Shown: positions 1,776-35,787 of the stretch, piece after piece
Layout: each line of letters opens with the position of its first letter
Numbering within the stretch: position 1 is the first letter of the stretch
DNA from: a virus
Virus record (IMG/VR): IMGVR_UViG_3300026488_000008
Coordinates: 1 to 35,787 of that record
Length of the DNA: 35,787 bases
Strand: one strand, 5' to 3'
Position numbers and translations under genes: made by a program
The notes under the pieces: generated by a model
Told to the model about the DNA's origin: nothing
The model's input: only the letters and a program-made list of their open reading frames with translations
Databases searched by the model: none

Positions 1776-3257
1776 TCACTTGAGCTTTATGGGCCTATAT
1801 ACTAATCCAACGCGGTCTTCAGACTTTTCGACGACTGGCACGACCGCTTTCTGCTCAGTCGCCTCATCTTCATTCTCCGCCTCATTGAGGCGGGCCTCAA
1901 TCCTTTCGAGGCGGTCGCGTATCTGCTCGATGAGCTCTGCAAGTTTCTGGATGTCAACGTCCGCAGACTTTTGTTCAGTTTCCTCGGGCTGTGCCTCCTC
2001 GATAGGCTCTGCCTCTTCCTTGACGTCCTCGACCTTCTCCTCGGGCCTGACTTCCGCCTCGACCTTTACGTCATCTTCGGGCATATCCAGTCCCTCCTCT
2101 TCGTTGAGTATGTTATCGTCCCACTCTGCCTCATAGTCCTCTGCCTCGCCACAGTCGGGGCACACGAAGTCCTCGACGTAGTCATCGACCTGCTCAACTG
2201 GGACCTCTTCCTTTGCGAGCTCTGCGTCGACGTCTTTCTTCGCGTGTTTGGCGCAGTAGCGCTCCCACAGGCGACGCGCCTTATTGTAGACGGTGCGGTG
2301 CCCGTATTTTGCGGCATACGCTATCGCCACGCGCACGGCGTTGCAGTTGAGTATTCTCTCTTTTCCGCCGTTGAGCAGGTGCTTCCACTCAAAGACAGGG
2401 TATTTCCTGTGCTCTGGGTCGAGGAACACCCACGCGGGCAGTTTCTCTCGCTCGCTCTGCTTTGGTGCCGTCCACGGCCGCCTCGTCACGGTAACCTTGC
2501 TCACAGCCTTCTCGACCATAGTATCACCCTCTTCAGCCTTGCCGAGAATTCTGTCACGCGCCACGGCGAGCGTGCGCAGAATCCTGTTGACAATCGTGGT
2601 CACGCCGTCTCTCACCGTCTCATCCTCAACGGAGTTGTTGATGAACTCCTTGAGCGCCTTGAGCTCCTTCATCGCGTCGGCAATCAGTGCCACCGCAGTC
2701 GGCGACGCCTTAGTCTCAACCGCGGAACCATCCTCGGCACCGTAGAGAGACTTCACGATGACCTCGGCCGCGTCGTAGGATGCCTGCCACACGCCCGCAT
2801 TTCGGTTCGCAGGAATTGCGACAAACGATGCCTCCACGAGCTCGGCGTCCACCCACTCGCGGACACCGTCCTTGTCGAAGCGGGACTCTTTCGGAATTGC
2901 CCCGATAGACACGCCGACGCGCAGGCCCTTCTTTACCAACTGCTCGACCTTCTTCCGCACCTTCTGCGCGTATTCATCGTCGAGCCAGTCGGGCTCCGCC
3001 ACGAGGGCGACGTGACCGCCCATCTCGACTGCGCGGAAGTTCTTCCACACCGCGACGATTGAATCGATGCTGTGCTTGTGGTCTACGAGCGCGGGCAGCG
3101 CCTCGACCTCCGCCCACCTCTTGATGAGCTCTGGCGCGATGCGCTCGCCCTGACGGTCGACGGACGAGTCGCTGAGAACGATGAGTGTCCTGCCGTCCGC
3201 TCCCTTCACAAACGGCGCGAGAACTTTCATTAATTTCGGCTCTTCGACAGGCATCAT
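1776..3257 (-). CDS. Prohead protease fused to an internal domain and acidic scaffold-like tail
   Basis: The 493-residue protein starts with a U35/HK97-type prohead protease: His in LVDHKHS (60-62), Ser117 in VGVSIGAIPKE and Glu142 in VEASFVAIPANRNAG match the catalytic His, Ser and acidic positions of that family. Residues about 270-345 hold a Trp/Tyr-rich globular module (WKHLLNGG to RRLWERYC), and a CPDC motif follows. The last 130 residues are very acidic and predicted coiled coil (IEQIRDRLERIEARLNEAE), as expected for a scaffold. The protease presumably removes the scaffold and itself during maturation. Adjacent ATGs at 3257 and 3254 follow GGGGTGAT. It is longer than a stand-alone protease, so this is a protease-scaffold fusion. 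Confidence 0.85.
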   Translation of the reverse strand: MMPVEEPKLMKVLAPFVKGADGRTLIVLSDSSVDRQGERIAPELIKRWAEVEALPALVDHKHSIDSIVAVWKNFRAVEMGGHVALVAEPDWLDDEYAQKVRKKVEQLVKKGLRVGVSIGAIPKESRFDKDGVREWVDAELVEASFVAIPANRNAGVWQASYDAAEVIVKSLYGAEDGSAVETKASPTAVALIADAMKELKALKEFINNSVEDETVRDGVTTIVNRILRTLAVARDRILGKAEEGDTMVEKAVSKVTVTRRPWTAPKQSEREKLPAWVFLDPEHRKYPVFEWKHLLNGGKERILNCNAVRVAIAYAAKYGHRTVYNKARRLWERYCAKHAKKDVDAELAKEEVPVEQVDDYVEDFVCPDCGEAEDYEAEWDDNILNEEEGLDMPEDDVKVEAEVRPEEKVEDVKEEAEPIEEAQPEETEQKSADVDIQKLAELIEQIRDRLERIEARLNEAENEDEATEQKAVVPVVEKSEDRVGLVYRPIKLK

Positions 3258-3278: not shown

Positions 3279-3295
3279 GTTTTAACCCTTACGCT
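3279..3295 (-). promoter_or_regulatory. Conserved viral promoter before the protease-scaffold gene
   Basis: The site is CGTTTTAACCCTTACGC on the + strand. The TTAAAA box is about 25-26 nt from ATG 3257, so a transcript from here would be almost leaderless, while the GGGGTGAT before the ATG would serve readthrough transcripts from the upstream genes. Confidence 0.6.
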
Positions 3296-7390: not shown

Positions 7391-7903
7391 TCAGCTCTCG
7401 TCGTATTGGACTTTAATGACCATCGTGCCGACGTCGCCTGGCGTTGTCACCGTGCTCGGCACAGCGAGCTGCATGACGAAATACTTGCTGTAGCCCGGAG
7501 ACGACGTTATCCCACCGCTCGGCGTGATGTCAAACGCGTTGGACACGCCCGTCCAGTTGGCAGACGGCGTTGTTGCGACGCTCGACTGCGTGTTCACGGG
7601 GTCGCTGAAAGTATCGGTCACGCCACCGTAGAGCTCGAGGTTAGAGTCGCTCTTGCTCCAGCTGTCGAGCCAGAGCTTGATGTTATCAATCTGGTTGAAC
7701 GTCCCGCTGAACTTCAGCCTGACCCACCGCTCGTAGGAATAGTTCGTGCCAGACTGGGGCACGGCGATGGGATACTGCGTATACTGTGTGCCGTCGCTGT
7801 CATACGCATCGATTGACATCAAGTTGAGGTTCGACGCCGAACCAGACGACGGGTTCTCAGTCCCGCCCGCCGTATAGACCTTCCATTCAACAGTTGCCGC
7901 CAT
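7391..7903 (-). CDS. Beta-rich virion surface/decoration protein candidate
   Basis: The 170-residue protein is rich in Ser, Thr, Gly, Tyr and Asn, poor in Lys and Cys, and has alternating beta patterns (WVRLKFSGTF, IKLWLDSW, YFVMQLAVPS). This composition suits an exposed beta-sandwich virion protein; no specific family is recognised. ATG 7903 has GGGTGAT four bases upstream, preferred over in-frame GTG 7912 and ATG 7909. It has its own conserved promoter at 7943-7958 and a hairpin after the stop, so it may be made in excess of its neighbours, as a decoration protein would be. Confidence 0.7.
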   Translation of the reverse strand: MAATVEWKVYTAGGTENPSSGSASNLNLMSIDAYDSDGTQYTQYPIAVPQSGTNYSYERWVRLKFSGTFNQIDNIKLWLDSWSKSDSNLELYGGVTDTFSDPVNTQSSVATTPSANWTGVSNAFDITPSGGITSSPGYSKYFVMQLAVPSTVTTPGDVGTMVIKVQYDES

Positions 7904-7942
7904 GACCATCACCCTCTATACTTATTAACTTCACGCTCCACA

Positions 7943-7958
7943 CGTTTTAACCTTTACG
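7943..7958 (-). promoter_or_regulatory. Conserved viral promoter before the 170-residue gene
   Basis: The + strand reads CGTTTTAACCTTTACG. The TTAAAA box lies about 42 nt from ATG 7903, giving a predicted leader near 16 nt that includes GGGTGAT. Confidence 0.6.
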
Positions 7959-9998: not shown

Positions 9999-10014
9999 GT
10001 TTTAACCTTTGCGG
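9999..10014. promoter_or_regulatory. Conserved element serving divergent transcription of portal and phosphoesterase operons
   Basis: CGTTTTAACCTTTGCGG lies between portal and the rightward operon. For the rightward gene the TTTTAA box centre (about 10003) is 27 nt from ATG 10030, the spacing of a leaderless archaeal transcript. The reverse complement offers TTAAAA to the leftward portal gene, about 50 nt upstream of its ATG. Confidence 0.65.
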
Positions 10015-10029
10015 TGTTATATATATGCG

Positions 10030-10950
10030 ATGATGCGCAACAACGAGTTAAACGACAACCATTTCAAGGTTCTGCGCGCCCTGAAGAAGTTCTCCAAAAC
10101 GGGCGGCGCAACGTATGACGACCTCGAAGACGCGACGCGGATAAAGAAGTCGTCGCTCTACGTCTACATACACGACCTCCGCGAGGCGGGATATCCGATT
10201 GAAACCGTCGGTGACCGTCTGTTCCTCGAACAGCACACGACGAAGAACTCGCGGGAGATCACGCTCGACGGGACGCACTTCCGCGTCGGGCTGATAGCCG
10301 ACACGCACATAGGCAGCAAGAAGTTCGACGAGGAACATCTGCACGAGTTCTACCGCCTCGCCGAGGAGTGGGGTGCAGACATCGTCCTACACGCGGGCGA
10401 TATAACGGAGGGCTTCAACGTCTACCGCGGGCAGGAGAACGAGATTGACGTCTGGGGCGTGGACGAACAGGTGGAGCGCGTCATCGAGGTGTATCCCGAC
10501 AACCTGCCGACGGCTTTCATAACGGGAAATCACGACCTCGCCGTCATGAAGACGGCGGGCGTGGACATAGGCAAAATGATTGCACGCGAGCGACCGGACA
10601 TGGAATACCTCGGGCGCTACGTGGCTGACGTCCACCTCGGCGACATCACAGTGCGGCTATTGCACCCAGACGGCGGAGTGACGTATGCGCTGTCATACCG
10701 CCCGCAGAAATACGTCGAGGGATACCTTGCCAAGGGAGACGATGTCGGCCTGTTGCTGTTCGGCCATCTGCACGAGCAACTTATACTGCACCACGCCGAT
10801 ACATACGTCGTCCTGCCCGGTTGCTTCCAGAGACCAACGGACTACCTCATACGCAAGGGCCTACACCCTGTTATAGGTGGTGTATTGGCCGACATAAGTG
10901 TTAAAGGGGGAAGGGTCGATATATTGTTTAGGGTTGTAAAATGGGTATGA
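10030..10950 (+). CDS. Winged-helix DNA-binding domain fused to calcineurin-type metallophosphoesterase
   Basis: The 306-residue protein has an N-terminal winged-helix of about 75 residues (FKVLRALKKFSKTGGATYDDL, IKKSSLYVYIHDLREAGYPI) and a metallophosphoesterase core with all five motifs: ADTHIG, HAGDI, TGNHD, LLHPDGG and GHLH. Such enzymes hydrolyse phosphodiesters with two metals; members act as nucleases (Mre11/SbcD-like) or nucleotide phosphatases. The DNA-binding head argues for a DNA substrate. ATG 10030 (or the next codon, 10033) fits a leaderless transcript from the box at 9999. It is the first gene of a rightward operon opposing the terminase genes, so it may act in DNA processing for packaging. 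Confidence 0.85.
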   Translation: MMRNNELNDNHFKVLRALKKFSKTGGATYDDLEDATRIKKSSLYVYIHDLREAGYPIETVGDRLFLEQHTTKNSREITLDGTHFRVGLIADTHIGSKKFDEEHLHEFYRLAEEWGADIVLHAGDITEGFNVYRGQENEIDVWGVDEQVERVIEVYPDNLPTAFITGNHDLAVMKTAGVDIGKMIARERPDMEYLGRYVADVHLGDITVRLLHPDGGVTYALSYRPQKYVEGYLAKGDDVGLLLFGHLHEQLILHHADTYVVLPGCFQRPTDYLIRKGLHPVIGGVLADISVKGGRVDILFRVVKWV

Positions 10951-11497: not shown

Positions 11498-12870
11498 ACG
11501 ATTTCGTCGAAGAAGGCGCGGAACGGAGCTGCGTTGATTGCGGCGTCGTAGGCGAGAGCGAGTGACATCACCATGTCGTCGTGGCCCCGCAGTGCTTCGA
11601 GGCGGATGCGGTCGCCGACCTTGTGCAGGCCGATGGACGTCAGCTCGTGGTAGAGGTCCGTGTCGTCGGGAAGCCTGAGCCATCGGTTGCGGATTGCGAC
11701 CTCCAACTGCGACAGAATTCTTTCCTTCGAGCGGCGCTTCGTCTCGAAGCTGTGGACTATCGCCGACAGGCGCGGGTCTTTGACGAGCTCAGCGTAGTAG
11801 CCCTGACCGAGACCCGTGACTTCGATTTGGATTGCGCTGAAGTTGAACTCCTCGTCGAGCTCGCTGAGCAGGCGGACGAGCTCCGTCGGTGCGATGCGGT
11901 CACGCGTGCGGTAGATGTAGTGCACGGCATAGACAGGGCGGTCGCCGTCAGCCTTCGCGCCGAGGACTGTGATGACCGTGTAGTCGTCCGCACCTGCCGC
12001 GAGGTCAATGCCTGCGTAGTATGCGTAGCCGTCCCTTGCACGAGGTGCTGGGCGGATTGTCGGGTCGATACACGCCTGCACGTCCTCCTCGCGGAACAGG
12101 AGCGCCCCCGCAGGAATCGGCTTACAGAGATACTCGCGGAACCACGCGAAGACGGACATGTTGTTCTTGAGGTTTTCGAGGTCTTGCGGCGTGAAGCGGT
12201 CGGGCCACAGGACGCGTCCCTCGTAAATTGCCGCGAAGCGGCGCGTCACGAACTGCGTGTATTTGTCCTCGCTCATGAAGTCGGCGAATATGTCGTTCTC
12301 CGCCATGGGCGTGCCGACGACGATGAGCTTTCCCTTCTTCGTCTGCACGGTCGGCATGATGACGCTGTTAAATATCTCCTTGCTGCGCGTGACAGAGTAG
12401 TCGGTATCCTGCAGGATGTCGTCACAGACGGCGAGGTCGACGTGTAGACCGCGGATTGATGGCTGGAACGGGCGTGCAATAATTTTACAGCCCGTCTTCG
12501 TGTGGAGCTCCTGCGCCGACCAGACGTCCTCACGCCCACGGGGCTTCAAGAGCGCACGGAGGTATGCGTCGTCATCGACCTTCTCCTTTATGCGCTCGAT
12601 AATCTTCTTGGACTGCGCGAACGTGGACGAGACGATTAAAATCTCTTTGTTGTTGTAGCGCACCGCCCACCACAGCGGGTAGAGGACGGACATGAGCTCT
12701 GACTTGCCGTGCCCACGCGGTGCGAGTATTGCGACGTAGCGGTGCTTCTCGGCGAGCGCGACCATCTCGACGTGGAACCATGCGAGGCGGTATCCGAGGT
12801 AGCGTGCGAAGTAGGTGAAGTCGCGGCGCAGACGGTGCCGCAACAGCTGTGCGCGTATGTTCTTGCTCAC
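11494..12870 (-). CDS. terL: Terminase large subunit (ATPase and nuclease)
   Basis: The 458-residue motor packages DNA. The ATPase has Walker A LAPRGHGKSEL (about residue 50), Walker B DLAVCDDIL and the coupling motif VVGTPM. The RNase H-like nuclease has GIDLAAGADDYT, IEVTGLGQG and GHDDMVMSLALAY, carrying the acidic metal ligands. GTG 12870 overlaps the signal peptidase stop (GTGA); TTG 12879 is an alternative. No strong ribosome-binding site is visible, so coupling is likely. The 3' end overlaps by four bases the stop of a gene on the opposite strand. Confidence 0.93.
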   Translation of the reverse strand: MSKNIRAQLLRHRLRRDFTYFARYLGYRLAWFHVEMVALAEKHRYVAILAPRGHGKSELMSVLYPLWWAVRYNNKEILIVSSTFAQSKKIIERIKEKVDDDAYLRALLKPRGREDVWSAQELHTKTGCKIIARPFQPSIRGLHVDLAVCDDILQDTDYSVTRSKEIFNSVIMPTVQTKKGKLIVVGTPMAENDIFADFMSEDKYTQFVTRRFAAIYEGRVLWPDRFTPQDLENLKNNMSVFAWFREYLCKPIPAGALLFREEDVQACIDPTIRPAPRARDGYAYYAGIDLAAGADDYTVITVLGAKADGDRPVYAVHYIYRTRDRIAPTELVRLLSELDEEFNFSAIQIEVTGLGQGYYAELVKDPRLSAIVHSFETKRRSKERILSQLEVAIRNRWLRLPDDTDLYHELTSIGLHKVGDRIRLEALRGHDDMVMSLALAYDAAINAAPFRAFFDEIV

Positions 12871-13343
12871 TGTAGCCAAACAACATCACCATTTTCGTCG
12901 TATATGTAGCCGACGACGGCGCACATGACGTGTGACGCGGGCACAACGCCGTCTGGCACGGGGTTCGTCTCACGGTTGTCGCCCCACGTTATGTAGAACT
13001 CGTCGTTTATGTCTGCCACGATGCGGTGGTCGACGAGGGACGCGGGATGCACGAACACGTCCTGCATCTCGACGGGCGGAGCGTATGCGACGATGTCGCC
13101 GACGTCGTATTCGTCTTTCTTCACGCAGACGACCGTTATGCCGCCGCACGGCAGCGTCGGATACATCGAGCAACCCTGTGCACGTATGTGATACACCGTG
13201 CCGACGGGGTCGTCCCACGTCTCCGCCACGTGCTCGAGACCGACATACGAGGCGGTGACTGCCTCTATGTGCGGCAGATACGAATAGACCAGCAGCACGG
13301 CAAGGGCAACCGACACGAGCAAGAGAGCACGGTCACAGCTCAC
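12867..13343 (-). CDS. Type I signal peptidase, archaeal/Sec11-like
   Basis: The 158-residue protein has an N-terminal membrane anchor (ALLLVSVALAVLLVY, residues 6-20) and the S26 signal peptidase core: GCSMYPTL with catalytic Ser59, DEYDVGDIVAY, VDHRIV with His106, and the GDN motif (121-123, Asp122). Archaeal and eukaryotic enzymes use Ser/His as here, whereas bacterial ones use Ser/Lys. The active site would face outside the membrane. GTG 13343 has GGTGA six bases upstream. It sits between the terminase subunits and overlaps both, which is a surprising place for a secretory protease. Its substrate is unknown. Confidence 0.85.
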   Translation of the reverse strand: MSCDRALLLVSVALAVLLVYSYLPHIEAVTASYVGLEHVAETWDDPVGTVYHIRAQGCSMYPTLPCGGITVVCVKKDEYDVGDIVAYAPPVEMQDVFVHPASLVDHRIVADINDEFYITWGDNRETNPVPDGVVPASHVMCAVVGYIYDENGDVVWLQ

Positions 13344-14701: not shown

Positions 14702-15107
14702 GCCTACCCCTCCTGCGGTTGATTATGTGCGCAACGAACTCCGCCGCCTGCTGCATCTTGCGGAACTGCACGAAATGGATGCCGCCGTCTATGAGCTCCT
14801 GCACGAACAGTGGCTGTGCTCGCTCGACATCCTCGCTGTTGGCACGGCACAGCCCGTAGAACACGACGAACTTCTCCCACGTCGCTGGAACCCTGTCCAG
14901 CCCTTCCCACGCCGCACGAATAGGGTCGTCCTCCCGCACAGCGGATATGACGACGAACCCGAGATGAAGCACGGGCACCCACAGCACGGGGACGTCGTCA
15001 CCGACCGAGATTATAGGGTCGCGGTCAAGCCACTGCGACAGAGACTCGACGAACCGACGGTCAACCTTTCCCGCCTTAACTGAAATCCATTTCGGGGCCT
15101 GTAGCAT
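14694..15107 (-). CDS. Unknown protein heading the packaging operon, 137 residues
   Basis: No family is recognised. The soluble protein has a hydrophobic core strand (VPVLWVPVLHLGFVVISAV, about residues 39-57), a helical C-terminal half and an Arg-rich end (NRRRGRRV). The frame is open to 15149, but that stretch contains the promoter. ATG 15107 is about 27 nt from the TTAAAA box centre, fitting a leaderless message, and there is no Shine-Dalgarno sequence. It is the first gene of the operon leading to the large terminase. Confidence 0.7.
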   Translation of the reverse strand: MLQAPKWISVKAGKVDRRFVESLSQWLDRDPIISVGDDVPVLWVPVLHLGFVVISAVREDDPIRAAWEGLDRVPATWEKFVVFYGLCRANSEDVERAQPLFVQELIDGGIHFVQFRKMQQAAEFVAHIINRRRGRRV

Positions 15108-15130: not shown

Positions 15131-15171
15131 GTTTTAACACCTTCGCCACACGGTGGCGGAAGTGTTTTAAC
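15131..15171. promoter_or_regulatory. Divergent promoter pair with dyad symmetry
   Basis: Two GTTTTAAC boxes (15131-15138 and 15164-15171) flank an imperfect inverted repeat, ACCTTCGCCAC against GTGGCGGAAGT. The left box serves the leftward packaging operon (27 nt to ATG 15107). The right box would start rightward RNA near 15190, where no convincing gene exists. The dyad between them looks like an operator. Confidence 0.6.
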
Positions 15172-15792: not shown

Positions 15793-16383
15793 GCGCGATA
15801 TATATCGCGCTATATACTTGGCGGACTATAGTCCGCCATTTGTATTCACTGACGGATACAACACAAAATATGCACGGCGAGGTATACAACACGAAAACCG
15901 AAATCATTTTAATGATTTCGGAACTATATATACGGCAACATGTTTTTTGTTGCCGTCGTTATGTATAACTGTGTTCGTTGATTGTCGTGGGTGACTACGT
16001 CAATTCGCGGATACATATCCGCGAATATATATACTTCACTATACATGAATGTAAAAAAAATGACGTTTTTCTATATAAAAAAAACAACTATATGTATCTT
16101 TGATTTGTATTTTGGGATATCCCAAAATCTCCTCTCTCCTTGGCGCTACGCCGTCACAGACGGCGGTATGGGGCGGAATTCAGATATACACAGAGAGGAA
16201 GGGCGGAATTCGGGAATACACATGGTGAGGGCAACATGCCCGGATGTGTATCCTCGAGTATATATATTTTTATGTATATATGGATCGTGGTAGGGGGGTA
16301 GTGGATATAGCACACACAGTAGTATATGTTTTTTATACGGAAAAAGCACAATTTTTTTACATTCTTATATCCTCAAGGATATA
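15793..16383. repeat. Ladder of unrelated perfect inverted repeats; candidate origin/control region
   Basis: No gene is visible, but there are many palindromes of different sequence: 15793-15810 (GCGCGATATATATCGCGC), 15819-15838 (TGGCGGACTATAGTCCGCCA), 15898-15921 (11-bp arms CCGAAATCATT), 15932-15956 (9-bp arms ACGGCAACA), 16003-16026 (11-bp arms ATTCGCGGATA), 16109-16128 (ATTTTGGGATATCCCAAAAT), 16149-16165 (7-bp arms CGCCGTC), 16215-16251 (outer ATACACAT, inner GGGCA/TGCCC) and 16366-16383 (8-bp arms TATATCCT). The spacers are AT-rich with TATATA runs. This fits a replication origin, cruciform-forming control DNA or an array of small RNAs; the sequence does not decide. Confidence 0.75.
16171..16230. 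repeat. Imperfect 30-bp tandem duplication
   Basis: Two units, 16171-16200 and 16201-16230, share GGGCGGAATTC and most of an ATACACA segment, about 70% identical overall by eye. The second unit also forms the left arm of the hairpin at 16215-16251. Confidence 0.7.
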
Positions 16384-16489
16384 TTTTATTTATAAATTAG
16401 CGGAACGTCGGTTTTCCCCTAATCAAAAAGTCACGATTTTTTTACGAAAATATAAACTCAAGGATATAAATTAGGGTAAAAAAATAGGG
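16384..16489. other. AT-rich spacer with CTCAAGGATATA repeat
   Basis: CTCAAGGATATA at about 16373 recurs at about 16457. CCCTAAT (about 16416) and ATTAGGG (about 16470) form a wide inverted pair. Poly-T tracts read leftward from the gene above may end its transcript. No gene is seen. Confidence 0.5.
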
Positions 16490-16858
16490 TTATGCATCGT
16501 GGAGGGGTTTCTCCACGACGCTTTCTGCAGTGATTACAAACTCCTTGTTCTCTGGTTTCATGATCTCCATCGTGTAGTAATGTTTTGCGATTGCCTGTAG
16601 CCCGGCAACAAGTGCTTTGGCTTTGGTGACGACTTCTTGCCAGTTCTTGCCATAGACGTTGCCAGCATAATTTATTGCGGGCTCTTCTGGATCATAACAA
16701 TCGTCATAGGGGGCTACGATCTCTATAATCTCTTCGGTATCTGGATTCACCCGGAACAGTTCGCGCGTTCCGGGTGCCTCGGAGACCCACACGTGGGCAT
16801 ATGGCAGCCCACAGTCAGACACGTAATACTTAACCTTGACCTTTATTTCCGTCGTCAT
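16490..16858 (-). CDS. Unknown early protein, 122 residues
   Basis: No family is recognised. The protein is acidic, with an N-terminal strand pair (EIKVKVKYYVSD), a central acidic loop (NPDTEEIIEIVAPYDDCYDPEEP) and an amphipathic helix (WQEVVTKAKALVAGLQAIAK). ATG 16858 is chosen because GAGGTGA lies five to six bases upstream. It has its own TTTATAAAG promoter (16891-16917), nearly identical to that of the 17854 gene. It is isolated within the AT-rich control region and has AT-rich codons, so it may be an early host-interaction protein. The last codons overlap a hairpin (CGTGGA/TCCACG). Confidence 0.7.
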   Translation of the reverse strand: MTTEIKVKVKYYVSDCGLPYAHVWVSEAPGTRELFRVNPDTEEIIEIVAPYDDCYDPEEPAINYAGNVYGKNWQEVVTKAKALVAGLQAIAKHYYTMEIMKPENKEFVITAESVVEKPLHDA

Positions 16859-16890
16859 CTTCATCACCTCACATCTATAACGCCAAACTC

Positions 16891-16917
16891 CTTTATAAAT
16901 CTATCGTCGGTTTTTTG
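16891..16917 (-). promoter_or_regulatory. Early-type promoter, class TTTATAAAG
   Basis: CTTTATAAAT followed by CTATCGTCGGTTTTTTG (+ strand) matches 22 of 27 positions at 17889-17915. The TATA centre is about 38 nt upstream of ATG 16858, giving a leader near 12 nt with the GAGGTGA site. Confidence 0.7.
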
Positions 16918-17216: not shown

Positions 17217-17354
17217 TTATGCTCTGCTCCAGGCTGGCACAACAACATGCCAGCCCATGCGAGCCCAGTAGGAAGCGCACCAATGAGCCCACTCTACCGG
17301 CACATGTGCAGTTATCCTTTTGTCGCCCTTCTGGATTATTATCTTCCTTCTCAT
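17217..17354 (-). CDS. Small Trp-rich protein, 45 residues
   Basis: ATG 17354 shares a base with the stop of the 17354-17854 gene (TAATG) and has GGAGGG six bases upstream. The 45-residue product starts MRRKIIIQKGDKRITAHV and is rich in Trp, Ala and Arg (WAHWCASYWARMGWHVVV). Composition and starting signals look genuine. A GGCTGGC/GCCAGCC inverted repeat lies within the coding sequence near the end. It forms a two-gene early operon; function unknown. Confidence 0.65.
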   Translation of the reverse strand: MRRKIIIQKGDKRITAHVPVEWAHWCASYWARMGWHVVVPAWSRA

Positions 17355-17854
17355 TACTGTCCCTCCCAAATTTTTCGTAAATCTTCGATGTAATCCATTA
17401 TTCCGTTATAGAGCCAATATCCTAGTGTGCCTTCATCGTCGCCTTCATAGTAGAAGAAAAGCATATCTTGAATTGTCGCTGTTTTGTCGTGTTTTGGATC
17501 TCCGCCGTAGTATTTGGAGACGTTCCCGAAAATTTCTTCTATCCACCATTCCCCGTTTTCATCGCGGAAGTACACAATGCCTGCATGTGGTCCGCCGATT
17601 GTTGTATATGTTTCTAGTGTGTTATTGTTTTCATTATATGTATATGCAATTGGTTCGAGTTCGTAGATAATCTCTGCGATATCATCCACTTCTGTTATAT
17701 TATAGTCTTCCATTAGTTCAAGGAGTTCTTTTACAAGGGTATCTACATCAGGTATTATAGCTTTTTCATCCCAGCAGTGGTGCACGAAGTGTTCGCGCAC
17801 TTCCTCTACAAATTCCCGGACCTTTTTTATATCTATTTCCTTCTTTCCTTCCAT
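17354..17854 (-). CDS. Unknown acidic early protein, 166 residues
   Basis: No family is recognised. The N-terminal third is helical and charged (KKVREFVEEVREHFVHHC); the middle is beta-rich with aromatic residues (IAYTYNENNNTLETYTTIGG, GIVYFRDENGEWWIEEIFG); the end is helical (WLYNGIMDYIEDLRKIWE). ATG 17854 follows AGGTGG with good spacing, preferred over in-frame GTG 17863. It has its own early-type promoter. It uses AT-rich codons unlike the late genes, in keeping with early accessory or host-takeover genes. Confidence 0.75.
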   Translation of the reverse strand: MEGKKEIDIKKVREFVEEVREHFVHHCWDEKAIIPDVDTLVKELLELMEDYNITEVDDIAEIIYELEPIAYTYNENNNTLETYTTIGGPHAGIVYFRDENGEWWIEEIFGNVSKYYGGDPKHDKTATIQDMLFFYYEGDDEGTLGYWLYNGIMDYIEDLRKIWEGQ

Positions 17855-17888
17855 CTTAACCACCTTCGCATCGATTATGTTCCGAAAA

Positions 17889-17915
17889 CTTTATAAAGTT
17901 ATCTCCGATTTTTTG
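17889..17915 (-). promoter_or_regulatory. Early-type promoter, class TTTATAAAG
   Basis: CTTTATAAAG followed by TTATCTCCGATTTTTTG; 22 of 27 positions match 16891-16917. The TATA centre is about 40 nt from ATG 17854. Upstream, 17957-17978 carries two CGGACCGT copies that resemble the GGTCCGCGGACC site at 17098. Confidence 0.7.
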
Positions 17916-19460: not shown

Positions 19461-19769
19461 TTATACATTCTGCAACTCTTTCTGCACGCTCGCGATGAAC
19501 GCCGTCGCCTCGTCCACTGACTTCGCACCGAGCACAAAACCCTTGCCCGACGGGTAGATGCGCATTTTAAGGCGCGATGTGCTATCCTTCGGCGAGATGT
19601 CCAGCCAGCCCGTGATGTCGTCATCGTCATATATCACGATGTTGTATTCTTTAAACGCGCGGCCGTCCCGCCATTTCTCGTAGAGCCGTATCGTGTCCAC
19701 GCGGCGGTGCAGGTCGAAGGACACGACGACGTTCGCCACGCGGTAGGAAAAAGGGAGATCGTTGCTCAC
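19461..19769 (-). CDS. TBP-like protein, single lobe
   Basis: This 102-residue protein resembles one of the two repeats of archaeal TATA-binding protein: RVANVVVSFDL (10-20) corresponds to the IENVVAS-DL strand, a helix follows, EYN (41-43) matches the conserved AEYN, and YPSGKGFVLGAKSVDEA (72-88) matches the F-SGK-V-TGAKS-EEA signature, then the C-terminal helix. Full TBP has two such lobes in about 185 residues, so a homodimer could rebuild the saddle. A conserved loop is replaced by YDDDDITGWLD, so DNA binding may differ. ATG 19769 overlaps the upstream stop (ATGA). It could activate viral promoters or poison host TBP. Motif identification is good, function inferred. Confidence 0.7.
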   Translation of the reverse strand: MSNDLPFSYRVANVVVSFDLHRRVDTIRLYEKWRDGRAFKEYNIVIYDDDDITGWLDISPKDSTSRLKMRIYPSGKGFVLGAKSVDEATAFIASVQKELQNV

Positions 19770-20101
19770 TTCTCTCCCTCCTGCTCTTTCTTTTTAAACG
19801 CGACGAACACGGCGTCGGTCGGGTCGTCGAACACGTAGAGCACGACCGCGTCGTCGCCGAGTATCCTGCTAGCATCCGCCGTGATTATGCTCGTCAGCGC
19901 GTTGAAGATGTTGTTCAGCGGTGCGACCTCCTGCTTCCACGTCAGCAGCGACACGTAGTTCGCGCCCTTCGGAAGGTTGTCCTCGGGCCGTGCCTTGCGC
20001 ATCAGCGAATACTCGAGTTCGCTGCGCTTGAGCACGAAATATATCACCGCGTCCTTCGGCGCTGGTCCGCCGACAAAGTCGCCCATCCTCACGAACTCCA
20101 T
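19766..20101 (-). CDS. Unknown early protein, 111 residues
   Basis: No family is recognised. It is mixed alpha/beta, with a strand (KDAVIYFVLKRSELEYSL), a helical centre (LNNIFNALTSIITADASRIL), a further strand pair (DDAVVLYVFDDPTDAVFVAF) and a Lys/Glu tail. GGAGG lies nine bases before ATG 20101. It is translationally coupled to the TBP-like gene by a four-base overlap, so a shared function in transcription is a reasonable guess, no more. Confidence 0.7.
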   Translation of the reverse strand: MEFVRMGDFVGGPAPKDAVIYFVLKRSELEYSLMRKARPEDNLPKGANYVSLLTWKQEVAPLNNIFNALTSIITADASRILGDDAVVLYVFDDPTDAVFVAFKKKEQEGEK

Positions 20102-20102
20102 T

Positions 20103-20393
20103 TTAATCAGCCTCCGTAACTTTTATTTCGAGCACGGTCAGCGGCTCGTGTGGTGTGTCGTCCACGTATATCTCCTCGCCGAGCACACGTAGCCCACACT
20201 CGTCGAGCACGTCCTGTATTCTGTCGAAGTCCGACTCTATGAACGCGGACGATTTAATCACTATGCTCGCCACGCCCTCTTCGTATGGGTCTTCCGCCGC
20301 CGTCACGCAGTAAAAGTGTGCGCGCAGTTTAAACGCGGCGTGCTCGACCTTCAGGAAGAACGCCACGTCTTCCTTTTTCGGGATTTTTACCAT
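20103..20393 (-). CDS. Unknown early protein, 96 residues
   Basis: No family is recognised. The protein alternates strands and helices (VAFFLKVEHAAFKLRAHFYC, VASIVIKSSAFIESDFDRIQ, LTVLEIKVTEAD). ATG 20393 follows AGGTGG with normal spacing, preferred over in-frame GTG 20402. It starts about 15 nt after the putative ssDNA-binding gene and ends just before the 20101 start. Confidence 0.7.
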   Translation of the reverse strand: MVKIPKKEDVAFFLKVEHAAFKLRAHFYCVTAAEDPYEEGVASIVIKSSAFIESDFDRIQDVLDECGLRVLGEEIYVDDTPHEPLTVLEIKVTEAD

Positions 20394-20407
20394 TTGCACC
20401 ACCTCTT

Positions 20408-20929
20408 TTACTGCTGCTCCGCCTCCTGCTGGTGCTCGCGGCAGAGGTAGACGCCGAATTTATCCTTTGAGTAGCGGGCGACGCCCGGAGAGATTTCAGC
20501 GCCACAGACCTCACAGACATACGTGCCGTTCGGCCCGTTTGGCGGATACTTTGCGGCGTCGTTCTTCTTGTATGTTTTCTTCTTGTATCCCGATGCCTTG
20601 TAACCGCCTTTCTTGCCCGCGTAGGTTACCTTCTGCGGTGCAGATTTTGGTGTTGAAGGCTTTTCGTCGTCGAACGTCAGCGACTCGAACTCGCCCTTTA
20701 TGAACTGTAGTGCCTTCTTGATTGCCTTGACCTGTGCGGCGCCGATGCTGCGGGCATCCTTCTCGGAGACGACGCCGTAGGAGGCGACGACGTCCTTCGC
20801 GGCGACCTTCGCCTTGACGACGACCTTGCCGTCGCCAATTGGCACGAAATCAAAGTCCACCGCAGACACGCCCAGCACGGAGCGTGCCTCATCCCACCAT
20901 TCCTTCCTATAGTGCTCAACTTCTACCAT
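20408..20929 (-). CDS. Probable ssDNA-binding/annealing protein with zinc finger
   Basis: The 173-residue protein has an N-terminal alpha/beta domain (about 1-85), a Lys/Gly/Tyr-rich linker (GKKGGYKASGYKKKTYKK) and a C-terminal zinc site, Cys139-x2-Cys142...Cys163-x2-His166 (YVCEVCGAEISPGVARYS, YLCREH). That C-terminal pattern is typical of viral recombination or ssDNA-annealing proteins, and the linker would suit nucleic acid binding. The N-terminal domain is not clearly Rad52 or Erf. ATG 20929 follows AGGTGG. It lies next to the resolvase gene, again fitting recombination. Confidence 0.55.
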   Translation of the reverse strand: MVEVEHYRKEWWDEARSVLGVSAVDFDFVPIGDGKVVVKAKVAAKDVVASYGVVSEKDARSIGAAQVKAIKKALQFIKGEFESLTFDDEKPSTPKSAPQKVTYAGKKGGYKASGYKKKTYKKNDAAKYPPNGPNGTYVCEVCGAEISPGVARYSKDKFGVYLCREHQQEAEQQ

Positions 20930-20944
20930 GTTAACCACCTGTCA

Positions 20945-20976
20945 AGGTTATAAAGGGTCATAAAGTTTATAAAAGG
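20945..20976 (-). promoter_or_regulatory. TATA-type promoter before the ssDNA-binding gene
   Basis: On the transcribed strand CCTTTTATAAACTTTATG is followed by CCCTTTATAACC, giving two overlapping TATA candidates about 25-45 nt upstream of ATG 20929. Confidence 0.5.
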
Positions 20977-20982
20977 AACGGT

Positions 20983-21342
20983 TTACGTTGTGGTATTTAA
21001 AAGGCGGTCTTCTTCTATTTCGTCCCATGTCCCGTCTGGTGTGAGCCAGCGCCACCGGCGGACGCCACGTTTTGGGCGGTCAACAAACACATATATGCGG
21101 GGCGTATTCCAACCGATATACTCTCGCAACGGCAACATCTTTTTATATTCTTTTAGCTCCGTGTCCTTTGCACTATACTTCTTGCACTGTATTATGAGGG
21201 TAGGCGTGCCCTCTTTCCACGCCACAAGGTCTGCCCAGCCGTGCGACCCCGCTGCACGTATCACCGTCCATCCGCGCTCCTCGAGCTTCTTCTTGACCGC
21301 GTATTCAAACGCCCGCCCGCGCTCATACTTTTTGTTTGGCAT
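20983..21342 (-). CDS. hjc: Hjc-type Holliday junction resolvase
   Basis: The 119-residue protein has the archaeal Hjc/PD-(D/E)XK layout: KYERGRAFEYAVKKKLEERG with Glu13, VIRAAGSHGWADLVAW with Ser33 and Asp38, and LIIQCKK with Lys54. The usual Glu of the E-x-K motif is Gln52 here, a substitution seen in some relatives; whether the enzyme keeps full activity is uncertain. It would cut four-way junctions formed during replication or recombination before packaging. GGAGGTG is eight bases before ATG 21342. Neighbours are the annealing protein and a Dam-type methyltransferase. Confidence 0.85.
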   Translation of the reverse strand: MPNKKYERGRAFEYAVKKKLEERGWTVIRAAGSHGWADLVAWKEGTPTLIIQCKKYSAKDTELKEYKKMLPLREYIGWNTPRIYVFVDRPKRGVRRWRWLTPDGTWDEIEEDRLLNTTT

Positions 21343-25029: not shown

Positions 25030-25689
25030 CTATGGCTCGCCCTTCTCGCACTTCTTGCGGTATGGGCAATTCCGACAGCGCCACGACGGGACCTTAATTG
25101 GCAGTCGCCCGTTCTTCTGTGAGTAATACACGTAGCGCCATATCTCAAGGGCCTCTTCATACTTGCGCGGGTCGAACTCGACTTTAAAGCCGCGGATTGA
25201 GTTCGTGTTCTTCTTTATGTATAACAGTATCCCGTATTTTGCGTTCAGGTGCTTTATGTAGAAGTTCAGCTGCATCACATGCTCCTCATAGGGCTCGTCG
25301 GGCAGCTCCGACGCCGACTTCAGCTCCCACACGACGCCGCGACCGTCGAGCACGTCACAGCGCCCGCGGATTACGATGTCGCCGAGGTCAACGCGTAGTT
25401 CCTTCTCCGCCTCGCCACCGAACTTCTCGATAATCTTCTTCTCCCAGTAGTCGTGCACGGCGTCACCGAGCTCGAATATGTCGAGCAAGTAGACGTCGTG
25501 CGGCTCGTTGTATTTCTTGGAGTAGTAGATGTAGCGCGGGCAGTAACCCGCGCTGCTGGCGTAGAACTCGTTCTCGCCGAGCACGTGCTTGTCCCGCTCC
25601 GCGTAATACTGCTTCAGCAGCTGCTCGTGGTGAAACTTCCGCAGCTCCGTCACATCACGCGGTTCCTGCCTCTTCTTCTTTACCATCAT
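25030..25689 (-). CDS. Cas4-like RecB-family nuclease with Fe-S cluster cysteines
   Basis: The 219-residue protein has the Cas4/AddB-type layout: Cys50 in SAGYCPRYIYY, LGDAVHDYW (His79), IRGRCDVL with Asp112, VVWELKSAS with Glu122 and Lys124, QLNFYI with Gln140, and CRNCPYRKKC (Cys205, 208, 214) at the end. One N-terminal plus three C-terminal cysteines would hold a 4Fe-4S cluster. Such enzymes are 5'-3' or end-processing ssDNA nucleases. It overlaps the helicase gene by 35 nt, so helicase and nuclease are probably made together for replication or recombination; no CRISPR genes are nearby. ATG 25689 or the next ATG starts it. Confidence 0.88.
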   Translation of the reverse strand: MMVKKKRQEPRDVTELRKFHHEQLLKQYYAERDKHVLGENEFYASSAGYCPRYIYYSKKYNEPHDVYLLDIFELGDAVHDYWEKKIIEKFGGEAEKELRVDLGDIVIRGRCDVLDGRGVVWELKSASELPDEPYEEHVMQLNFYIKHLNAKYGILLYIKKNTNSIRGFKVEFDPRKYEEALEIWRYVYYSQKNGRLPIKVPSWRCRNCPYRKKCEKGEP

Positions 25690-32974: not shown

Positions 32975-33490
32975 TCACCCTTTAACAAGCGCTTCCTTTA
33001 TGCGAGTAGTAAGCCATGCATCGATGATAGCCTCGATGTTCTTCTCCACAGCCTCTGTGTAAGCATCCTTCACGAACCCGTGGTCTTCGGGTATGCGAAT
33101 CCTGAACTTGTTGCCCCTATCGAGGTGCGGGGCTTTATCCTTTACCCACGCAGTAAGCGTAGCATCACGGCTACCCGCCGCGTGCCACATCCCGTTCTTC
33201 CGCTTCTTCGCCGTGCGGTGGTAGCCGCTTGCAAACTTCCACGCGTGCGGCGCATAGAACACAACACGGTTACCTTCGATTGCAACGTCCGAAGTCAGTC
33301 GCCCCGTCCACACCATGTCACGCGACAGGAATTCCTGCCGCACAGCCGACGCAACGACCTGTGCCAGCACCTCCTGTCCCCGCGGATCAGTCAGCGCGCT
33401 GACAATCTTGCCGACGGCTTCTTCGAGTATCTTGTCGAGGTCTGGCTCGACTTCTCGCCCGTCCACCGTCACGCGTATCTCGCTGATCAC
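32975..33490 (-). CDS. HK97 gp10-like neck/tail completion protein
   Basis: The 171-residue protein shows the gp10-family pattern: an N-terminal helical part (LDKILEEAVGKIVSALTDPR), WTGRLTSDVAIEGNRVVFYA, APHAWKFASGYH and C-terminal helices. Proteins of this kind connect head to tail. GTG 33490 overlaps the previous stop (GTGA). Placement directly before the tube gene fits. Confidence 0.75.
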   Translation of the reverse strand: MISEIRVTVDGREVEPDLDKILEEAVGKIVSALTDPRGQEVLAQVVASAVRQEFLSRDMVWTGRLTSDVAIEGNRVVFYAPHAWKFASGYHRTAKKRKNGMWHAAGSRDATLTAWVKDKAPHLDRGNKFRIRIPEDHGFVKDAYTEAVEKNIEAIIDAWLTTRIKEALVKG

Positions 33491-33975
33491 TCGACCACCT
33501 CAAAATCGACCCGCCACACGCGGTGGTAAAACTTCGTCGGCTTCGTCACCACGTCCCGCGTCATGTTCGTGCTGGTAATCCGCGTTATGTATATCCCGTG
33601 CTGCGTCCAGTCATACGCCCGCAGGAACTCAAACACCTCATCCGACAGCGCGTCGAAGTCGGCAAGCTTCCCGCGGTGCATCAGGTGTATCTCGATGCTC
33701 CCAGACACGTGCGACCGGCCCTCGCCAAAGCCCTCGACCGTCACGTCGAAGTCCACGTCCGCTGGCGCGACAATGATGAGCGGATACTCGGGAAACTCCT
33801 CCAGCGTCCACCCGTCGGGAAACTTTGCCCGTATCCACTCGGGGGGGTCACGGGGCGCGGGCGTCCCCTCGCTGCCCACGTGGCGGTCTTGAATCGTGAA
33901 CCACTCACTATCGACGCTCGCCGCCGCCCTAAACGCATCTAAGAAGACCTTTGCAACGCTTGAATAGCTCACCAC
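33487..33975 (-). CDS. Tail terminator/completion protein candidate
   Basis: The 162-residue protein is alpha/beta with a terminator-like plan: an N-terminal helix (VAKVFLDAFRAAASV), EYPLIIVAPADVDFDVTVEG, SHVSGSIEIHLMHRG, then a helix (LSDEVFEFLRAY) and a C-terminal strand (YHRVWRVDFEVVE). In tailed viruses such a gene precedes the tube protein. GTG 33975 or GTG 33972 starts it without a strong ribosome-binding site. It heads the tail operon. Confidence 0.65.
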   Translation of the reverse strand: MVSYSSVAKVFLDAFRAAASVDSEWFTIQDRHVGSEGTPAPRDPPEWIRAKFPDGWTLEEFPEYPLIIVAPADVDFDVTVEGFGEGRSHVSGSIEIHLMHRGKLADFDALSDEVFEFLRAYDWTQHGIYITRITSTNMTRDVVTKPTKFYHRVWRVDFEVVE

Positions 33976-34016: not shown

Positions 34017-34037
34017 TACTAAAATACCGTGCGATGG

Positions 34038-34054
34038 TGTTTTAACCCTTGCGG
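34038..34054 (+). promoter_or_regulatory. Conserved viral promoter for the rightward 34077 gene
   Basis: TGTTTTAACCCTTGCGGTG matches the consensus almost perfectly. Transcription about 26 nt downstream of the box would start near 34069, leaving a leader of about 8 nt with GGTGAT. The reverse complement may also serve the tail operon. Confidence 0.6.
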
Positions 34055-34076
34055 TGCATGTATTATGGGTGATGCT

Positions 34077-34367
34077 ATGACCGAATACGACGTCGATGAA
34101 ATGGAATACTACTTGCAGAAGAAGGCCGCTGCAGCGGCCAACAAGTTCCGCCGCGAGATAAACAAAATCCTCGACAGCATCGATAACCCAGATCTCGTGC
34201 ACCTCGACTACACGCTCGTCGTGACCGTTGCAGCGGACGAAATCTCTGCTAAGCAGATATCCGACCGCTTTATATGGCAGGCAGAGTGGGAGAAGAAGCA
34301 CGAGGAGGAAGAAGACACAGAGCCAGAAATTGCCGTTGCGCCAAAGGCTCCGCATATGTATGGTTAA
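34077..34367 (+). CDS. Unknown acidic helical protein, 96 residues
   Basis: One of only four rightward genes. Helical N-terminal half with an Ala-rich segment (MEYYLQKKAAAAANKFRREI), a beta strand (HLDYTLVVTVAADE) and an acidic tail (EEEEDTEPEIAVAPK). GGTGAT lies a few bases before ATG 34077; ATG 34065 is an in-frame alternative. It precedes the putative RNA locus. Function unknown. Confidence 0.7.
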   Translation: MTEYDVDEMEYYLQKKAAAAANKFRREINKILDSIDNPDLVHLDYTLVVTVAADEISAKQISDRFIWQAEWEKKHEEEEDTEPEIAVAPKAPHMYG

Positions 34368-34374
34368 TCAAAAA

Positions 34375-34391
34375 TGTTTTAACCATTTTGG
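34375..34391 (+). promoter_or_regulatory. Conserved-type promoter before a non-coding locus
   Basis: TGTTTTAACCATTTTGGTC is a weaker copy of the viral element. A start about 26 nt downstream falls near 34405, where no convincing gene begins. Confidence 0.5.
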
Positions 34392-35353: not shown

Positions 35354-35787
35354 TCACCAGACCTCACCCCGTTTCGGGATGAGTGTGTAGAGACGCCTCG
35401 CCTCTTTGACGAGGTCGTTTATGATGTCCTGCGGCAGCGTGCTCGGCCGCACATCACCCGCAGAATACTGCGCATAGACGGAGTTCTTGAACAGTGCGTT
35501 GCGGCCCTGAGGCGTGTCCGCGAGTTCGAGCAGGGTCAGAACGATACACAGCTGTTTGGCGATGTTGCGGTCACGCTCGTCCGTGATGCCGTATGTGTAT
35601 TCGACGTGTATCTTTTTGTCCACGCCGAAGTTTGAAATCGGGCTGTCGGGCGTGAGATAAATCCTGTTGTCACGCCAGCGCAGCGTATTCGGGTCGATAT
35701 CCTGCCCGTCCACGGTGAGCCGCGTGACAGAAATGATTGGCGCGTGCGAGACCTCTATCCAGTCCTGCAATTCGTATGTGTGCGTGA
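35354..35787 (-). CDS. Head-tail connector, C-terminal part
   Basis: This is the same gene as 317-1. Bases 35661-35787 duplicate 1-127, so the window's last 127 bases contain part of the gene a second time; the unique C-terminal portion is 35660-35354. Features include TYGITDERDRNIAKQLCIVL (a helix) and DIINDLVKEARRLYTLIPKR. The apparent TTG start at 35770 is an artefact of the window end: the frame is open beyond it and begins at GTG 317. Confidence 0.75.
   Translation of the reverse strand, partial: THTYELQDWIEVSHAPIISVTRLTVDGQDIDPNTLRWRDNRIYLTPDSPISNFGVDKKIHVEYTYGITDERDRNIAKQLCIVLTLLELADTPQGRNALFKNSVYAQYSAGDVRPSTLPQDIINDLVKEARRLYTLIPKRGEVW
35661..35787. repeat. 127-bp terminal direct repeat (circular closure)
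   Basis: These bases are identical to 1-127. An odd-length exact overlap of 127 is typical of a k-mer assembly closing a circle, so this is more likely an assembly overlap than a biological terminal repeat. A reading frame continues without interruption across the join. Confidence 0.95.

Follow-up and report, generated by a model that had tools for sequence, protein, structure and literature searches.

The viral DNA analysed here encodes a small protein that, judged from its sequence, is a free-standing TBP-domain protein of one lobe rather than a TBP proper. The source is the IMG/VR record IMGVR_UViG_3300026488_000008, and the stretch that was analysed, in the following called the window, is the whole record of 35,787 bases. 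The gene lies on the minus strand (19769-19461), starts with GTG and codes for 102 amino acids. An earlier sequence-only reading had placed the open reading frame at 19461-19769 without naming a strand, and this position was borne out. Its description of the product as virus-encoded, TBP-like and single-lobed likewise held up, given the match to PF00352, a lobe profile, hhalign, matches in the PDB and a guided fold prediction. We regard the homology to a TBP lobe as close to certain.

In a Pfam-A search TBP (PF00352) was the sole family matched up to E=10, with 28.7 bits and E=1.2e-6 at a curated cut-off of 22.9. The match spans residues 9-101 of the protein and positions 2-84 of 85 of the model, i.e. 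the full lobe model. We built a lobe HMM from 17 TBP lobes of archaea and viruses; it gave the viral protein 25.4 bits, whereas none of 5000 shuffles exceeded 7.0. The scores versus the N lobe and the C lobe of TBP (23.6 against 18.2 bits) are compatible with an origin of the viral lobe from either. NCBIfam listed TBP models alone, all of them well under their full-length cut-offs (18.5 vs 278 bits for the TBP equivalogs). phmmer ranked five archaeal TBPs at the top in the PDB with weak E-values from 0.003, and hhalign aligned the single sequence to three archaeal TBPs with a probability of 91.6. The identity to archaeal TBP lobes is 24-27%. No non-TBP family with a better score emerged from the profile searches, in agreement with the earlier assignment. 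A match to PHROG 21553 (E=0.0012) was dropped as a relative, since no TBP matches this group. When all six frames of the window were scanned with the lobe HMM, no other TBP lobe was found and the TBP-lobe protein alone scored; a neighbouring gene was rejected as the missing second lobe on the basis of negative or near-zero scores.

From the single sequence AlphaFold2 returned S2-S5 and H2 in the order of TBP, at low confidence (pLDDT 56). Guided by an alignment of 14 viral TBP lobes, taken from loci that had been retrieved, it provided the order S1-H1-S2-S3-S4-S5-H2 with a pLDDT of 87.6 and a pTM of 0.76. The guided model has the shape of a TBP half-saddle, as the sequence-only reading had anticipated; it counts as support and not as independent proof, because the alignment itself favours the TBP fold. 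In Foldseek comparisons of this model with the PDB, TBPs occupied ranks 1-32 (probability 0.99-1.00, query TM 0.56-0.69), followed by RnlA, and in the viral library BFVD it matched TBPs of giant viruses as well as some of their proteins of lobe size. The single-sequence model yielded nothing informative in Foldseek, and this comparison was set aside.

With the archaeal TBPs of Sulfolobus acidocaldarius (1MP9), Pyrococcus woesei (1AIS) and Methanocaldococcus jannaschii (2Z8U) the viral protein has in common the full-length PF00352 lobe, the order of strands and helices, the Asn and Val of the DNA face and the SGK and GAKS motifs. Asn13 and Val15, the minor-groove positions in S1, were invariant in both alignments, and neither the SGK turn nor GAKS has been lost. 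The letters quoted in the sequence-only reading are correct for residues 10-20 (RVANVVVSFDL), 41-43 (EYN) and 72-88 (YPSGKGFVLGAKSVDEA). For EYN as a hallmark of TBP, however, only the letters stood and not the position in the alignment: it is Tyr47-Asp-Asp-Asp-Asp-Ile-Thr-Gly that faces the stirrup Tyr-x-Pro-Glu-Gln-Phe-Pro-Gly instead. The viral stirrup reads YDDDDITG in place of YxPEQFPG and is acidic (DDDD), and compared to archaeal TBP there are insertions of several residues before and of three residues after the stirrup. Whereas archaeal TBP has two lobes, the viral protein has one, with Ile52 and Tyr72 replacing the Phe pair by which TBP kinks the DNA. Phe78 and Leu80 stand where TBP has Val and Thr on the DNA face. 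Given these four residues, TATA-type bending may be lost. Because the two lobes and the Phe pair of TBP were looked for and not found, we file the protein as a TBP-domain protein and not as a TBP.

The ends of the record form an exact direct repeat of 127 bases (1-127 and 35661-35787), such that the record is probably a closed circle representing a complete genome of about 35,660 bases. This probable completeness makes it meaningful that a second lobe is absent and that the apparently complete genome encodes neither TFB nor a TFB cyclin domain. Genes for an HK97-type capsid protein, a protease, a portal and a large terminase are present, and the source is apparently a tailed virus of an archaeon. 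The host is taken to be archaeal because of an Hjc-like resolvase, a PolD-small-subunit-like phosphoesterase (10009-10950, plus strand) and the TATA-like boxes described below. Elsewhere in the window, a peptidase S24/S26-like protein with a GCSMYPT motif (12867-13343, minus strand; sub-threshold E=0.0009) overlaps the start of the large terminase gene. An AT-rich segment at 16341-16473 contains two 48-base direct repeats (75% alike) with CTCAAGGATATA and is a candidate replication or regulatory region.

The TBP-lobe gene is the last of a four-gene operon on the minus strand (19461-20938) whose genes follow one another at distances of 5, 1 and -4 bases. The other members, on the same strand, code for proteins of 176 (20408-20938), 99 (20103-20402) and 111 amino acids (19766-20101). 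The GTG start of the TBP-lobe gene overlaps the stop of the preceding gene by four bases, and its third-position GC of 0.78 is like that of other genes. The 176-residue protein has a C-terminal zinc site (CxxC...CxxH), its gene adjoins the Hjc-like gene, and it is perhaps a single-strand annealing or recombination protein. Upstream of the operon lie the genes for the Hjc-like resolvase (20983-21342), a Dam-type methylase and a Cas4-like nuclease (25030-25689); downstream of the TBP-lobe gene a pyrimidine-rich stretch is followed by the next promoter.

Different promoter boxes are associated with different parts of the genome. GGTTAAAAC occurs in 6 exact copies (0.13 expected), all on the minus strand, which is the strand of the structural genes. 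The unusual TATA-like elements that the sequence-only reading had seen at viral promoters were confirmed by the 8 copies of GTTAAAAC (0.67 expected) and the 5 copies of TTTATAAA (0.17 expected). GGTTAAAAC goes with structural operons: it was found before the prohead protease and major capsid genes (3279-3287, with its centre 26 bases 5' of the ATG at 3257), before the genes at 7391-7912 (box at 7944-7952) and 332-535 (box at 565-573), and between the portal gene on the minus and the phosphoesterase gene on the plus strand (9999-10007). The copy at 34376-34384 is probably that of the tail-gene block downstream of it, the gene assignment being uncertain, and the copy at 34039-34047, upstream of 33487-33975, may serve the plus-strand ORF 34029-34367 instead. 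On the minus strand, one copy of GTTAAAAC (15131-15138) is located about 26-28 bases 5' of a likely ATG near 15107, at the head of the operon leading to the methyltransferase and the terminase, and a second copy (15164-15171) also lies upstream of this operon. TTTATAAA goes with regulatory and recombination operons, including that of the TBP lobe itself, the TATA-like box of which (20966-20973, minus strand) is 27 bases 5' of the GTG at 20938; two further minus-strand copies precede the genes at 16490-16867 (box at 16892-16899) and 17354-17863 (box at 17890-17897). All eight copies of GTTAAAAC fall into the structural part of the genome and four of the five copies of TTTATAAA into the other part (Fisher P=0.007 in a post hoc test). 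The late-type boxes are mostly 25-36 bases 5' of the start codon and are preceded by CGYAAR, which is possibly a BRE.

The protease-capsid promoter was compared with that of 16 distinct contigs carrying homologous protease genes, which are AT-rich, distant (about 30% identity) and mostly fragments. A canonical TTTAWATA or TTTATAWA box was present in 12 of them (1.0 expected) and GTTAAAAC in none, indicating that the lineage of the virus departs from the usual box at the homologous late promoter. GGTTAAAAC could also be an ordinary box for the host TBP.

Close relatives of the TBP-lobe protein were found neither by tblastn in phages and plasmids, nor in IMG/VR scans with the protein, the lobe alignment and a motif pattern, nor in a GTDB scan, and these sets thus provided no relative for a conservation test. 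Two matches in the GTDB scan (a MerR-type protein and a molybdopterin oxidoreductase) and a single motif match in IMG/VR were due to chance. Among 59 whole records of relatives of the virus, found via terminase and capsid, none contained a TBP domain, which is weak evidence because most of these records are fragments. Full-length TBPs were present in nine IMG/VR contigs, in one case interrupted by a stop, such that a virus-encoded TBP is not new in itself. The interrupted case (L007:5992-6534) was rejected as an example of naturally split lobes: both lobes belong to one TBP, and the in-frame stop that separates them may reflect a broken gene or an error in sequencing. In the contigs L002, L004, L005 and L006 the full two-lobe TBPs are located near a PolD-small-subunit-like phosphoesterase, and such a phosphoesterase is also encoded in the window. 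The TBPs of the virus contigs (L002-L006, L008, L009/L010) and of giant viruses share with the viral lobe a virus-encoded TBP domain but have two lobes, in most cases an FPG stirrup, and no close sequence similarity to it. Three giant-virus proteins in BFVD (A0A8K1T2T8, 94 aa; A0A167R4C5, 132 aa; A0A2P1EL28, 120 aa) are lobe-sized and have a similar predicted fold (probability 0.99-1.00), but they are uncharacterised, come from protist viruses and are 11-13% identical to the viral lobe. The free single-lobe form of TBP in a tailed virus is without precedent in our searches of phages, plasmids, IMG/VR, GTDB and the literature. To this extent the novelty claimed by the sequence-only reading stands; it does not extend to viral TBPs in general, given the two-lobe TBPs of IMG/VR contigs and giant viruses and the TBP-like late factors of herpesviruses (PMC4893493).

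As a tentative interpretation, held with somewhat less than even confidence, we propose that the protein is an early-made promoter-selectivity factor that acts, probably as a homodimer, at late promoters together with the host TFB. The lobe would be made early from its operon with the TTTATAAA promoter. It would bind DNA with the concave face of its sheet and pair with itself, by which a two-lobed saddle would be rebuilt. The dimer would select the late promoters consisting of CGYAAR and GGTTAAAAC for the host RNA polymerase via the host TFB, and host TBP would serve the TTTATAAA promoters. That the protein binds DNA, forms dimers, recognises GGTTAAAAC, contacts host TFB and is made early is inferred, as is the archaeal host. 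The two promoter classes lend circumstantial support to a role in transcription; a redirection of the host polymerase by the viral lobe, one of two functions considered in the sequence-only reading, is plausible, and the data suggest that the virus supplies a promoter-recognition factor of its own to activate its late genes. The kept Asn13 and Val15, the acidic stirrup and, by analogy, the herpesvirus late factors count in favour of the proposal. TBP-like late factors of beta- and gamma-herpesviruses bind a non-canonical TATT box (PMC4893493). The likeness to these factors (EBV BcRF1, MHV-68 ORF24 and analogues) concerns the proposed function, in which a TBP-like protein acts at late promoters that have a non-canonical box. 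The herpesvirus factors are, however, much larger proteins of animal viruses and part of a viral pre-initiation complex, whereas the function of the viral lobe is a proposal from sequence. The lost Phe pair, the absence of a viral TFB and the position of the gene among recombination-type genes count against a promoter factor. A more specific version appears doubtful: the homodimeric single lobe would recognise the near-palindromic GGTTAAAAC box, hand the late genes to the host polymerase via host TFB and represent a modern counterpart of the TBP that preceded the duplication.

The neighbourhood of the gene allows a different reading, in which the protein is a nucleic-acid-binding accessory of the viral recombination or replication machinery that uses its single TBP lobe like the N-terminal domain of bacterial RNase HIII. 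The Hjc-like resolvase, the Cas4-like nuclease and the zinc-site protein in or upstream of the operon are in agreement with it. So is Tyr72: in bacterial TBP-like lobes the aromatic position L5.1 is occupied by Tyr or His (PMC7221094), and we infer that Tyr72 corresponds to it. RNase HIII, AlkA and RnlA also carry one TBP-like lobe per chain and a Tyr near the SGK turn. In these proteins, however, the lobe forms part of an enzyme or a toxin, whereas the viral lobe has no Pfam match to their TBP-like domains, and the Foldseek match of RnlA ranks below the TBPs. Since TBP was the sole Pfam family matched, the TBP-like families of RNase HIII and AlkA do not score; neither these families nor an attached enzyme domain were seen in Pfam up to E=10, and the chain leaves no room for a second domain. 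With archaeal TBPs as the best sequence matches, no catalytic domain attached and the second promoter class left unexplained, we consider an accessory role unlikely, if still worth weighing.

We regard it as rather improbable that the protein acts as an antagonist, in which case the half-TBP would silence transcription of the host or of early viral genes by pairing with host TBP or by occupying TFB. With its acidic stirrup, a single lobe could resemble the surface that contacts TFB and still yield no productive saddle, and global inhibition of transcription by a protein of an archaeal virus, RIP, has a precedent (PMC9501531); yet the kept Asn13 and Val15 of the DNA face would be needless for a protein acting on protein alone, and the separate late box would be left without reason. 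The divergence from archaeal TBP lobes and the interrupted two-lobe TBP of contig L007 would fit a decaying, functionless remnant of a captured two-lobe TBP, but the intact frame, the translational coupling to the preceding gene, the normal codon-position composition, the end-to-end coverage of the lobe model and the lack of any second-lobe trace alongside make this highly improbable.

The available parts of reviews describe archaeal viruses as using host TBP and TFB, and the exception named there is viral TFB homologues, in rudiviruses (PMC5569661, PMC9501531). TBP is unmentioned in a survey of archaeal tailed viruses (PMC8651126). If the proposed promoter-selectivity factor is real, a tailed archaeal virus would make a general transcription factor of its own, and the viral TBP lobe, combined with a promoter box specific to the virus, would constitute a simple early-to-late switch that parallels late transcription in herpesviruses. 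The case would further show that a TBP lobe can exist on its own, with implications for the origin of the duplicated TBP.
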